DNA from: Bacillota bacterium
GTDB lineage: Bacteria > Bacillota > Sulfobacillia > JAUYEG01
Direction: 5' to 3'
Assembly (NCBI GenBank): GCA_030691505.1
Contig: JAUYEG010000121.1
Span: 1-57,571 of the forward strand
DNA length: 57,571 nucleotides
Under the pieces are notes generated by a model. The model had not been told where the DNA came from and made no database searches. It saw nothing but the letters and a program-made list of their open reading frames with translations. Position 1 is the stretch's first letter. Each line of letters starts with the position of its first letter. Both the position numbers and the translations under genes were made by a program. Below are positions 11,772 to 31,778 of this stretch, in pieces.

Positions 11772-12038
11772 CTAGCGTGATATGCCCAGCTCGGAATCCC
11801 GGGCTGGGCGGTCGACCACCGGCAGTTCCACCGGGCGGGCCGGCGAAACGGTCGACATGGCGTGCTTGTAGACCATCAGCTGCTTGCCGTCGTTCTCAAG
11901 CACGACCGTGAAACTGTCAAAACCCCTGACATAGCCTTTTAGCTGCACACCGTTCACAAGGTAGACGGTGACCGGCAGATTCTCCCGCCGGATTTGGTTG
12001 AGCAGCGCATCCTGCAGATTGGCCTGGCTTTTGGACAT
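11772..12038 (-). CDS. hfq: RNA chaperone Hfq
   Basis: Sm-like RNA chaperone, 88 residues, forming hexameric rings that bind small RNAs and mRNAs. Sm1 covers about residues 8-45 and the Sm2 signature YKHAMSTV has KHA at 58-60. The start ATG follows GGAGGAGAAA. It is next to miaA as in many bacteria. The C-terminal tail of about 20 residues is slightly longer than in Bacillus. Confidence 0.96.
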
Positions 12039-26942: not shown

Positions 26943-27740
26943 CTACTGGGCAGGCGGCGACCCGCGCAGCAGGAAACGCTCAATGGCAAGCGCGCGGCCG
27001 TCCTCGTCGGCGATTTCGATGAAGACGCCGGCAGCCTGCGCCGGCCCGGGCGCGGGGGCAAAGCGGACCGGAAGTTGAGAAAGAAACCGCTGCAGGGCCA
27101 ACTCAACCTGTACGCCGATCACGGAATCAAATGGACCGGTCATGCCGAGGTCGGTGATATAGGCTGTGCCGCCGGGAAGCACCCGCTCGTCGGCCGTCTG
27201 GACGTGGGTGTGGGTTCCGACGACGGCACTCACCTTGCCATCGAGGTGCCAGCCCAGCGCTGCCTTCTCGGAGGTCGCCTCGGCATGAAAGTCGACTATC
27301 ACGGCTTTGACGGTCTGGCGCAGGCGCCCGGCCTCCGCCAGGCCCGTGCGGAATGGATCGTCCGGGTCGCTCGGGAAGAAGACGCGCCCGTGCAAGGAGA
27401 TCAGGCCCAGGGCCAGGCCGCTGTCGCTATGCAGGATCACAGAGCCGACCCCCGGGGGCTCACCCGGCAGGTTGAATGGACGAAGGACCCTGTGCTCGTG
27501 CTCAAGGTACCCGAGAATCTCACGCTTGGCGAACGTGTGGTTGCCCAGGGTCATCCCGTGCAATCCAAGGTCAAAGAGCTCCTCGGCGACCTCGGGAACC
27601 AGACCCATGCCGCCGGCGGCGTTCTCGGCGTTGGCAAGCAGGAAATCGGGCGCGTATCGCGCCCGCAATTGGGGAATCCAAGCAGCCAGGGCCTGCCGGC
27701 CCGGGCGGCCGACAACGTCCCCGAAGAATAGGACTCTCAC
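26943..27740 (-). CDS. ymdB: YmdB family phosphodiesterase
   Basis: A 265-residue metallophosphoesterase that cleaves 2',3'- and 3',5'-cyclic nucleotides and affects biofilm formation and late adaptive responses in Bacillus. Metal-binding elements are FFGDVVG (Asp8), ANAENAAGG, LGNHTF, VDFHAEATSEK and GTHTHVQTAD. The length matches the 264-residue Bacillus protein. Its start overlaps the stop of the upstream unknown gene by 4 nt. The order rny-(unknown)-ymdB-spoVS resembles Bacillus with one gene inserted. Confidence 0.95.
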   Translation of the reverse strand: MRVLFFGDVVGRPGRQALAAWIPQLRARYAPDFLLANAENAAGGMGLVPEVAEELFDLGLHGMTLGNHTFAKREILGYLEHEHRVLRPFNLPGEPPGVGSVILHSDSGLALGLISLHGRVFFPSDPDDPFRTGLAEAGRLRQTVKAVIVDFHAEATSEKAALGWHLDGKVSAVVGTHTHVQTADERVLPGGTAYITDLGMTGPFDSVIGVQVELALQRFLSQLPVRFAPAPGPAQAAGVFIEIADEDGRALAIERFLLRGSPPAQ

Positions 27741-28258
27741 TTGTTAAATACGAGGACCCTACCGCCCTCGCGGTAGGCTATCAGGTTATGTTGCTGCTGC
27801 GTTTCGCGCAGGTCATCCAACGCCTCGTCGATGAGCTGCTCCTGCACGATCAGATCCTCCTCCATCAGTCCGGAGTCGGATTCTACAACCAGGACGTCGC
27901 CGAAATTCGAGCGCATCAAACCGATGAGAAGCGAGATCTCCTCACGCGTGAGGGTTTCCGCATCGCGGCTGATCTCGATCGCCGTCAGCCCCTGAAGCGA
28001 GGTCCGGGTGACGTCAACGAGACGCGGCTCGATGCCCTGCAGAAACGAGAATGCCTCGACGCTCTCCAGCACCAGATTCTGAAGCGTGCGGAAACTGCCC
28101 AGAGCCATCCGCTGTCTGAGCAGTAGGGTGAAACACAGGGCATGGCTCTGCGGGTCGAACGTTACGGAGCCGACCTCCGGGAAGCGAAGCAGTATGGATA
28201 CGAGCAGGCCCGCGCCTCCGGAACCGCCTCTGTCCTGGATGTTCTTGGCTGTGGTCAA
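27737..28258 (-). CDS. conserved-looking protein of unknown function between rny and ymdB
   Basis: A 173-residue cytosolic protein that I do not recognise. The start is TTG at 28258, 6 nt after AGGAGG, and the stop overlaps ymdB by 4 nt. It has no membrane segment and no Cys cluster. The middle is hydrophobic-acidic with LTREEISLLIGLMRSNFGDV, and the C-terminal third (LMEEDLIVQEQLIDEALDD) looks like a long helix, perhaps a coiled coil. Coupling to RNase Y and YmdB suggests a link to RNA turnover or cyclic nucleotide signalling, by context only. Confidence 0.8.
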   Translation of the reverse strand: MTTAKNIQDRGGSGGAGLLVSILLRFPEVGSVTFDPQSHALCFTLLLRQRMALGSFRTLQNLVLESVEAFSFLQGIEPRLVDVTRTSLQGLTAIEISRDAETLTREEISLLIGLMRSNFGDVLVVESDSGLMEEDLIVQEQLIDEALDDLRETQQQHNLIAYREGGRVLVFNK

Positions 28259-28324: not shown

Positions 28325-29875
28325 CTACTTCGCGTATTCCACGGCCCTCGTTTCGCGGATCACGGTCACCTTGATCTGTCCCGGGTAGTCCAGCTCGCTC
28401 TCAATTTTCTTGACAATATCGCGCGCGAGGCGTACGGATGACAAATCGTCGACGCGGTCAGGCTTGACGATGATCCTCACCTCGCGGCCGGCCTGGATGG
28501 CGTATGCCTTGTCTACTCCCTCGAACGTGTCGGCGATGGCCTCGAGCTTCTCAAGTCGCTTGATATATGATTCGAGCGTTTCGCGCCTGGCTCCGGGCCG
28601 AGACGCCGATATGGCGTCAGCGGCCGCAACGAGTACCGCCTCCACCGAACCGAATTCCGCGTCACCGTGATGAGCGGCCACGGCCTCGATAACCTCGGGA
28701 CCCTCCCTGAACTTGCGGGCGAGGTCCACGCCGATGGCTACATGGGTACCCTCGACCTCGTGGTCGACCGCCTTGCCGATGTCGTGGATCAACCCCGCCC
28801 GGCGGGCGATCTGCACGTTGGCCCCCAGTTCGGACGCCATCACCGCCGCCAGATGCGCCACTTCGAGCGAGTGCTTGAGCACGTTCTGCCCGTAGCTCGA
28901 ACGGAACTTGAGCCGGCCGAGGAGCTTGATAAGCTCAGGATGCAGGTTGTGAACCCCGGCGTCGAACGTCGCCTGCTCGCCCTCGGCCTGGATTCTTGCC
29001 TCGACTTCTTTCTGCGCCTTCTCCACGGTCTCCTCGATACGCGCGGGATGAATGCGTCCGTCCGCTATCAGCCGCTCGAGCGATATGCGCGCGACCTCGC
29101 GCCGGATCGGGTCGAACCCCGACAGGATCACGGCTTCCGGCGTGTCGTCGATGATAAGGTCAATTCCGGTCAGAGTCTCCAGAGTGCGGATGTTGCGGCC
29201 CTCGCGGCCGATGATCCTGCCCTTCATCTCGTCGTTGGGCAGAGCGACCACGGAAACCGTCGCCTCGGCGGCATGATCGGCGGCGCTGCGCTGGATCGCC
29301 AGGGCGATCACCTCACGCGCTTTGCGGTCGGCGTTTTCGCGGGCGGCCTGTTCTATGTCCCGCGCCAACTGGGCCGCTTCAACGCGGATCTCCTGCTCCA
29401 CGTTACAAAGCAGCAATTCCTTGGCGTCGGCGCTGGTCAAGCCGGATACCCGCTCCAGCTCAGCGACTTGTTGCGTATGCAGATCGGCGGCGGCCTTTTC
29501 CAGCTGAACAAGGTCTTGGTCCCGACGCCGAAGGCCCTCCTCCCGCTTCTCAAGGGATTCGCTCTTGCGGTCAAGGCTCTCTTCCTTCTGCGTGAGCCTG
29601 CGCTCTGTGCGCAGCAGTTCGTTCCTGCGTTCCTTGGCCTCCCGCTCGACCTCGTTGCGCATCCGCAACGTTTCTTCCTTGATAGCGACAAGGGACTCTC
29701 GTTTGCGTGCCTCGCCGTCGCGGTTGGCCTCCCCAATGATTCGCGCCGCCTGCGCTTCAGCCGACCCGACTCGGGCTTCCGCGGCAAGCTTGCGCCACTG
29801 GAAGCCGACCCCGATACCGACCACCAGCGCCACTGCCGCCGCCGCTGCTGAAACCAGCCAGTTCAAATGGGACAC
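28325..29875 (-). CDS. rny: ribonuclease Y
   Basis: Membrane-bound endoribonuclease that starts mRNA decay; 516 residues against 520 in Bacillus. The N-terminal membrane segment is at 4-22, a long charged coiled coil covers about 30-200, the KH domain has [15 protein letters not shown], and the HD domain has [12 protein letters not shown] with the metal His-Asp pair. The start is GTG at 29875 behind GGGGGT. Upstream lies a 300-bp region with its own promoter and terminator, so leader-based control is possible. Confidence 0.96.
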
Positions 29876-29950
29876 CCCCTATCTCAAGGCGGTGCCCAGG
29901 TGGGATAGAGTTCAGACGATCAAGCCCCGTCGTCTGCCCACAACGCAAAA
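29876..29950 (-). other. leader immediately upstream of rny
   Basis: Between the terminator hairpin and the rny start. It contains an inverted repeat (CAGACGA and TCGTCTG, 29913-29936, 10-nt loop). I see no strong promoter of its own, so rny may depend on read-through of the terminator at 29951-29974. Confidence 0.35.
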
Positions 29951-30121
29951 AGCCGCGTCACGAGACGCGGCTTCGAAGGCTGTAGACCCGGAAAGCGCAA
30001 CAAAACAAACGCGCCCAAACACCGACGCGAGCCGACCCCAACCCGGGACACCACACTGGAACGGTATATAGAAAGTCAATTTGCTAGCACCTTTGGTGAG
30101 CGCTGGTCGAGCCAGCTTCTC
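29943..30121 (-). ncRNA. candidate small RNA or rny leader RNA
   Basis: A strong promoter (-10 at 30128-30133) would start a transcript near 30121. An intrinsic terminator at 29974-29951 would end it near 29943, giving about 180 nt with no good reading frame. The 5' part can form small hairpins (GCTGG/CCAGC and CACC/GGTG); the middle is rich in G and T on this strand. It could be a stand-alone small RNA or an attenuated 5' leader of rny. I recognise no known RNA family. Confidence 0.45.
29948..29974 (-). terminator. intrinsic terminator between recX and rny
   Basis: A 10-bp stem AAGCCGCGTC/GACGCGGCTT with a 4-nt loop is followed on the minus strand by TTTTTGCGTT. It may end the recA-recX transcript, the small RNA, or act as an attenuator before rny. 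Confidence 0.85.
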
Positions 30122-30127
30122 GCAGTC

Positions 30128-30157
30128 ATTCTATTGAAGGGTTGACCGGCCTGTCAA
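30128..30157 (-). promoter_or_regulatory. strong promoter downstream of recX
   Basis: On the minus strand a perfect -35 TTGACA (30157-30152), 18 nt, then -10 TAGAAT (30133-30128). It lies just after the recX stop (30194) and 250 nt before rny. It is among the closest matches to the housekeeping consensus in the window. Confidence 0.75.
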
Positions 30158-30193
30158 GAAATCCAAGCTTGGAGGCGTACGACCGGTCCCTGG

Positions 30194-30760
30194 TCAATTT
30201 TCGGGCCTGCCCGGACCGCCGCTGCATGCCGCGGCCCGTGCCACCTCGTGTTCGAAACCGCGCCCGACGAGGTAGGCGTAACACTTCCGTTGCCGCGCGT
30301 CCGCGGACAGCCCGGCATACCGGGCGTTGGCCCTGGCAGCCAGCGCCTGTGCCGCGGCCAACTCCGCCCCCTGGTCGTAGATCGCCAGCGCCGTCTCGAT
30401 GTGTTCAGGCGCTATTCCCTTACGTACCAGCTCAGACGCCAGAGCTCGCCGGCCGATGGGACGGAGCCTGCTCCGCTCCTCCACCCACTGGTGTGCGAAT
30501 GCCGCGTCGTCCACGTAGCGCAGCTCTCGCAGGCGCACCAGTACGCCCTCGATTGTGCCGGTCCCGAAGCCCGCGCGCGAGAGTTTGTCCGTAAGTTCGC
30601 GTTCGGTCTGAGGGCGCGCCGACAGGAGGCGAAGAGCCCGCGTCATCGCCTCGCGCGAAGCTTGGGCCGGGTCCAGCGGATTCGGGCCCAGGTCGGCCCC
30701 GTCGGGGGGCTCCAGGTTTTCGCGCTCCCCGGTGCCCGATCTAGACCTCCTCGCCGGCAT
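30194..30760 (-). CDS. recX: RecA regulator RecX
   Basis: Modulator of RecA filaments, 188 residues. It is built of short three-helix repeats; [21 protein letters not shown] opens the first and [29 protein letters not shown] the second. The start taken is the ATG at 30760, 20 nt inside the end of recA; the strong AGGAGG lies just after that ATG, so a start slightly downstream cannot be excluded. The open frame extends to 30871 inside recA and that part is not credible. Confidence 0.88.
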
Positions 30761-31778
30761 CCTGAGCACTCGCCGCACGGATAGCGCCAAGATTGAGGGC
30801 GCCGCGGATCTTGGCTTCCATCTCTGCGGCCGTTTCCGGGTTTTGCCGCAAAAACTCACGCACGTTTTCACGTCCCTGTCCGATGCGCACGTCTCCGTAG
30901 GAGTACCAGGAGCCGGTCTTGGTGACTATGCCAAGATCGGTGGCAACATCCACCAGCGCGGTCTCGCGCGAGATGCCCACGCCGTACACGAGGTCAAACT
31001 CGGCCTGCCGGAACGGAGGGGCCACCTTGTTCTTGACCACCTTGGCCCGGACGCGCATGCCGACGACGTCCGTACCCTGCTTGATGCTCTCGATCCTCCG
31101 GACCTCGATACGTATGGAGGCGTAGAACTTGAGCGCCCGGCCGCCCGGGGTAACCTCGGGGTTGCCGAAGATAACCCCCACCTTCTCACGCAACTGATTG
31201 AGGAAAACGACCATCGAATGCGACTTGCTTATCGCGCCTGTCAGCTTGCGCAGGGCCTGCGACATCAGCCTGGCCTGCAAACCGACATGGGAGTCGCCCA
31301 TCTCCCCCTCGATCTCCGCCCGCGGCACGAGGGCCGCGACCGAGTCAATGACCACGACATCCACGGCGCCGCTGCGGACGAGGGCCTCCGCGATCTCGAG
31401 GGCCTGCTCGCCGGTGTCGGGCTGCGAAATCAGCAGGTTGTCGATGTCGACCCCGAGGTTTCGGGCGTACTGGGCATCCAGTGCGTGCTCCGCGTCGATG
31501 AAGGCCGCGACTCCTCCCGCCTTCTGGGCCTCAGCGACCACGTGCAGCGCGACGGTCGTCTTGCCCGAGGCCTCGGGCCCGTAGATCTCGACGGCGCGGC
31601 CGCGCGGCAGGCCGCCGACCCCAAGGGCGATGTCCAGCGGCAGACAGCCGGTTGAGATAACGTCCACCTGCATCCTGCCGGACACCTCGCCTAGCTTCAT
31701 GATCGAACCCTTGCCAAACTGACGCTCGATTTGCGCCAGCGCGGTGTCCAGTGCCTTTTGACGGTCCACGCGGGTCAC
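30741..31778 (-). CDS. recA: recombinase RecA
   Basis: Homologous recombination and SOS co-protease, 345 residues. The P-loop GPEASGKT is at 67-74, and [30 protein letters not shown] and the [19 protein letters not shown] loop are all intact. The start is GTG at 31778 after GGGAGCAG. It is followed by recX with a 20-nt overlap and preceded by thpR and cinA. Unlike lexA and yneA, its promoter shows no clear LexA box. Confidence 0.98.

Follow-up and report, generated by a model that had tools for sequence, protein, structure and literature searches.

A leader RNA with a conserved terminator and a predicted antiterminator precedes the RNase Y gene rny in Bacillota

The rny locus and its leader

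The window, that is, the whole stretch of 57,571 nucleotides analysed here (contig JAUYEG010000121.1 of a Bacillota bacterium of the class Sulfobacillia), carries on its minus strand recA, recX, a promoter, a leader of about 150 nt, a hairpin with a short T run and rny, in that order. The initial annotation had described a TTGACA-N18-TAGAAT promoter, a leader of this length and a 10-bp hairpin before rny, and the minus-strand sequence is as it stated. The features are as follows.

30194..30871, minus strand: recX, the upstream gene, with three RecX HTH domains; it is preceded by recA and lies outside the switch
30128..30157, minus strand: promoter, TTGACA (30157-30152), an 18-nt spacer and TAGAAT (30133-30128), with 11/12 consensus matches
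29942..30121, minus strand: leader RNA, about 180 nt if terminated, with a start near 30121 as predicted from the promoter
30107..30121, minus strand: antiterminator 5' strand, nt 1-15, GAGAAGCTGGCTCGA, predicted to pair with the terminator 5' arm
30065..30083, minus strand: most AU-rich stretch (19-mer) of the leader, nt 39-57, CAAATTGACTTTCTATATA
30077/30076, minus strand: candidate RNase Y cleavage site, UUG↓AC
29962..29976, minus strand: antiterminator 3' strand by predicted pairing, TCGAAGCCGCGTCTC, overlapping the terminator 5' arm and loop
29950..29973, minus strand: terminator hairpin of 10 bp, AAGCCGCGTC-TCGT-GACGCGGCTT, score 32
29942..29949, minus strand: short, imperfect U tract read from the sequence, TTTGCGTT
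28325..29875, minus strand: rny (RNase Y), the regulated gene (RNase_Y_N 1.4e-58, HD 4.9e-17, KH 6.5e-06)

The promoter is the single promoter-like site both in 28500-31500 (0.3 expected) and in 29860-30200 (0.0 expected). The hairpin starts 148 nt downstream of the putative start at about 30121, its score is reached by about 0.1% of shuffles of the class sequences, and the tract behind it gives five consecutive T when the last two of the stem are counted. A generic terminator scan of the window does not list it, because the T run after the extended stem is short. Taken from the predicted start through the U tract and slightly beyond (29936-30121), the RNA has a better fold than each of 200 shuffles (z -3.3). 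Translation of rny more likely begins at TTG 29866, which stands behind the ribosome site AGGGGGTG, than at GTG 29875.

A second, weaker terminator-like hairpin lies within the leader (30010-30029, minus strand; CGCGTCGGTGTTTGGGCGCG then TTTGTTTTGT), at about chance level (0.5 expected). Downstream, between rny and ymdB, is an ORF of 173 aa (27737-28258, minus strand) that has no Pfam match. The window also encodes Hfq, as had been noted (11829-12017, minus strand; PF17209, E 2.9e-31), which in itself says nothing about the leader RNA.

Conservation of the promoter and terminator in relatives

The leader has diverged too far for its DNA to find homologues directly; these were therefore reached via the rny protein, and the DNA upstream was then read. 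A DNA search with the leader in 40 relatives gave, beyond its own genome, one weak 32-bp match only, and no second copy away from rny was found in this way in the 41 genomes (its own and the 40 relatives).

In nearly every relative one strong promoter (TTGACA-N17-TANAAT) is present about 80-400 nt upstream of rny. Within the class of the window, a strong terminator is present in the 260 nt immediately upstream of rny in 73% of 85 genomes, compared with 2.4% of dinucleotide shuffles. These terminators are often identical in sequence (GCCGAGTC...GACTCGGC) and often end 20-50 nt ahead of the rny ribosome site, so close that no further promoter would fit in between. In most relatives the hairpin has a T-rich tail (e.g. 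TTTTTTTA). As an independent set we used 70 genomes of the phylum from outside the class: the promoter was identified in 70/70 and the terminator in 60/70 (34 families), all downstream of a strong promoter. Conservation in relatives, on which the initial annotation had let its proposal depend, is borne out for the promoter and hairpin, the architecture being kept and the unit being more than chance. The leader is also present where recX is not adjacent, being absent or far (L037-L040, L046, L047, L055 and L056); it therefore belongs to rny.

Predicted pairing of the 5' end with the terminator

Across 28 families of the class, the terminator 5' arm is complementary to transcript nt 1-30, with a family-mean z of 1.59 +- 0.35. 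Windows that begin at nt 30-60, and those beyond nt 90, score close to 0; between them, at nt 70-80, z rises slightly. The terminator 3' arm has no such complementarity to the leader (z 0.09), which argues against a composition artefact. The match is particular to each family: own 5' ends compared with those of other families gave z 1.53 +- 0.34, so that swapping abolishes it, and the same swap scored by duplex energy gave -1.83 +- 0.32 (27 families). The set outside the class behaves alike, with z 1.91 +- 0.36 at the 5' end and about 0 beyond nt 40, and z -1.81 +- 0.27 in the swap by duplex energy. The complementarity in relatives peaks at exactly the register that a start near 30121 would give, which supports that placement of the start. 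An unconstrained duplex-energy test of long-range pairing proved too permissive (family-mean z -0.53), and the stricter tests above were used instead. A wider set from named genomes was mixed, the 5'-end signal being clear in Desulfotomaculum relatives and absent in some others.

When unfinished class leaders, ending at the terminator loop, were folded, the arm formed 7.5 bp with nt 1-30 compared with 3.3 for shuffled 5' ends, and its pairing exceeded that with shuffled 5' ends in 26/28 families. For the leader of the window the predicted folds change as the RNA grows: at 161-164 nt, approximately nt 1-16 hold the terminator 5' arm (12.8 expected pairs), and from 170 nt on the 10 bp terminator replaces the antiterminator. 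Pairings of this kind are predicted for L056 (GGTCCGCCACTTTGTGCGAGCCAT with ATGGCGAGCACGGAGTACGGACC), L060 (GGCTTTTGTACTTGGTCTTCC with GGAAGAGCGTACAAAAGCC) and L146 (GATTCGCGTCGGCATGTGATC with GATCCATGCCGAACCGGATC), whose terminator sequences differ and whose 5' ends vary along with them.

In leaders outside the class, the terminator segment CCGAGUUUC has its pairing partner, GAAACUAGG, near the 5' end. These leaders can be aligned by eye; their 5' side contains, in this order, GGGAGAAACUAGG, UUAGRA, ACUACCA and CGGGUUU with AUAGAU, and their 3' side UGGUAG, UUCUAA and CCGAGUUUC-UACUCGG-U(n). In an alignment of them made without structure, the antiterminator pairs hold in 86.9% of cells compared with at most 60.5% when slid. 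The initial annotation had also asked for covariation, and on this one alignment the outcome differs between the two helices. The terminator covaries clearly, its pairs holding in 98.7% of cells, partly by construction as hairpins had been selected. The column-by-column covariation of the antiterminator is modest (13 to 43 of 500 shuffles reach it, depending on the measure), because the sequence itself is conserved. RNAalifold on whole-leader alignments of distant families, which were too ragged, recovered the terminator only.

Known RNA families and leader peptides

The window has no match to Rfam 15 at the gathering score. A search of 29800-30250 with E up to 10 gave no meaningful match, 6S RNA (RF00013) included, and neither the loci of 20 relatives nor 20 further leader regions gave any at or above the gathering score. 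The identity of the leader as 6S RNA was rejected on these grounds, since no covariance model matches at the locus and 6S RNA sits on another contig. The 6S RNA of this genome is found at G000:C54:40465-40671 (L027; RF00013, E 1e-17), and 6S RNA was identified in 39/41 genomes searched, in 38/41 above the family cut-off.

Several short minus-strand ORFs cross the leader in the window. A leader-peptide attenuator was rejected, as a ribosome site with an ORF is not enriched (38% vs 48% in shuffled sequences; 22% vs 28%). This agrees with the earlier observation that the unit holds no good reading frame: the leaders of relatives are not enriched for a ribosome site with a short ORF.

A probable transcription attenuator and its likely input

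A promoter lies upstream of a terminator that precedes the gene, and an alternative helix uses the terminator 5' arm. The reading of the unit as an attenuating 5' leader of rny is well supported by what was computed, namely the promoter, the terminator, the mutually exclusive pairings and their coevolution. It is one of two readings offered by the initial annotation, and the conserved order of elements and the coevolving antiterminator speak for it; nothing in our results favours the other, an independent small RNA. Taken together, the leader is probably a transcription attenuator of rny with RNase Y itself as the most likely input.

Transcription would start near 30121, and roughly the first 15 nucleotides transcribed would pair with the emerging 5' half of the terminator. 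This pairing would block folding of the terminator, and the polymerase would continue into rny. Where the pairing is lost or too slow, the terminator would form and transcription would end about 180 nt from the start. In vivo, termination would thus be regulated. In the predicted fold of the full-length leader the terminator state is the more stable, so antitermination must be kinetic or assisted.

As for the signal, the preferred cleavage step of RNase Y is G↓A within AU-rich RNA, U occupying positions -2 and -3 (PMC11780869). Among hexamers in nt 1-110 of the class leaders, AUAGAU is the most enriched (10/28 families vs 0.67 expected), and by its sequence this motif fits the G↓A preference. 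It is absent from the leader of the window, where the AU-rich stretch at nt 39-57 stands in its place. In our preferred model the signal would be cleavage by RNase Y of its own leader: the enzyme would cut where the leader is AU-rich, at AUAG↓AU in many relatives and at UUG↓AC in the window; the cut would detach the 5' strand of the antiterminator, and termination would follow. High RNase Y would then mean more termination and lower RNase Y synthesis. When nt 1-45 were removed in silico, pairing of the terminator arm fell from 0.70 to 0.52 in the class; in the window the arm was not freed (0.77 paired vs 0.76), because it found other partners. We put forward only tentatively the full form of the model, a phylum-wide RNA switch in which the nascent 5' end of rny is the antiterminator and is removed by the enzyme's own cut. 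A protein or ligand, instead of RNase Y, may be the sensor.

Alternative explanations

The closest alternative keeps the attenuator and replaces what switches it: RNase J and RppH could attack the 5' end, or the switch could be operated by an RNA-binding protein or, as in a riboswitch, by a small ligand. We regard this as a real possibility that falls short of being probable. In leaders outside the class, the switch helix encloses an extensive conserved architecture (ACUACCA/UGGUAGU, CGGGU/ACCCG) that resembles an aptamer, and a switch that requires an intact 5' end could be acted on by 5'-end decay. Against this alternative, the inner leader sequences differ greatly from family to family, as those of most ligand aptamers do not, and the one recurrent motif, AUAGAU, is the one that matches the preference of RNase Y. 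Rather unlikely is a role of the hairpin as a 5' stabiliser of a processed rny mRNA, for which RNase Y would cut the leader and RNase J would halt at the hairpin. The hairpin does stand directly ahead of the ribosome site, and in B. subtilis RNase J1 trims the rny mRNA to about position -15 (PMC10303841); a stabiliser, however, would not account for the T-rich tails behind the hairpin in most relatives and would leave the antiterminator complementarity without a role.

A free-standing small RNA, perhaps bound by Hfq, that happens to precede rny, with rny transcribed by leakage or from elsewhere, is improbable. The promoter, the terminator, the unit length of about 180 nt and the presence of hfq in the window would suit it, and a small RNA could possibly arise as a by-product of termination. 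However, many relatives have no space for a further promoter between the terminator and the rny ribosome site, the unit remains next to rny even where a different gene lies upstream, terminator and antiterminator coevolve, and the DNA search of 41 genomes returned no second copy. That the hairpin merely ends the recA-recX transcript, the rny promoter lying ahead of it by accident, seems very unlikely: although the recX stop codon lies about 220 nt upstream of the hairpin, a promoter lies upstream of the hairpin wherever both are recognised, and the leader persists with recX absent or distant. The length and long hairpin fold of the leader recall 6S RNA, yet the Rfam searches and the proper 6S RNA elsewhere in the genome leave practically no probability to 6S RNA or another known family. 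Among these readings, attenuation of rny with RNase Y as the input is the one we prefer.

Comparison with known systems

In B. subtilis the 164-nt rny leader is cleaved by RNase Y, chiefly within its first 50 nt, and the enzyme represses its own synthesis, lowering its own mRNA (PMC10303841). The 5' UTR of B. subtilis rny (Korobeinikova et al. 2023, PMC10303841) shares with the window the gene, a long leader transcribed from its own promoter ahead of rny, and an AU-rich cleavage region near the 5' end, which in the window is a candidate. It differs in that no terminator is described for it and expression is controlled through mRNA decay and trimming by RNase J1 (PMC10303841). The leader of the window contains a terminator and a predicted antiterminator, so that the first decision would be whether rny is transcribed at all. 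In E. coli, as summarised in PMC10303841, a stem-loop of the rne leader recruits RNase E and speeds decay. This too is feedback on the main decay endonuclease through its own long structured leader, though the summary describes it without a terminator switch, and enzyme and sequence are unrelated.

The organisation as a whole recalls a further group of systems. In riboswitch and T-box attenuators the terminator 5' arm can enter either of two mutually exclusive helices, and folding during transcription decides between them. Exclusive helices sharing this arm are also predicted for the leader of the window, which differs in that the antiterminator strand is the extreme 5' end, no Rfam aptamer is present and the regulated gene encodes an RNase.

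An attenuator of rny was not found in our literature searches or in two candidate-RNA surveys, the 2017 survey of 224 RNAs lying outside their scope. Attenuators are known and so is autoregulation of RNase Y; within the literature searched, both their combination and this conserved leader RNA appear to be new. RNase Y starts the decay of most mRNAs in many Gram-positive bacteria, and control of its level has been worked out, within that literature, for B. subtilis only, where mRNA decay is the means. With a conserved attenuator this control would gain a second layer, and it would be clear why a strong promoter and long leader have been retained ahead of rny throughout the phylum. If the model holds, a nuclease sets its own level by cutting the RNA that decides transcription of its gene, and the leader represents a regulatory RNA class that is not in Rfam, a new conserved leader RNA for annotation. 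It raises the question of whether cleavage of the nascent leader decides termination.

Variation among rny leaders

RNase Y is not detected at E 1e-100 in 46/136 class genomes, including all listed members of f46 and f7, and entire families such as these may have lost or replaced it. The class families f37 and f8 have no terminator. Their members L186, L187, L189 and L193 have short rny leaders, some of which retain ATAGAT or ATAGAA, as if attenuation had been lost and decay control kept. Short rny leaders were also observed in Lachnospiraceae relatives (L119, L121, L124, L126, L129-L131 and L140), where the ribosome site is surrounded by a nearly invariant block, ACAATGAAAAnTnAATAAGGAGGTGCTCCTGT. 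The clostridial rny leaders L104, L109 and L112 contain AUAGA-type motifs; ATAGATCGGAG is found in L104, and in L109 and L112 it adjoins the ribosome site as a further copy.
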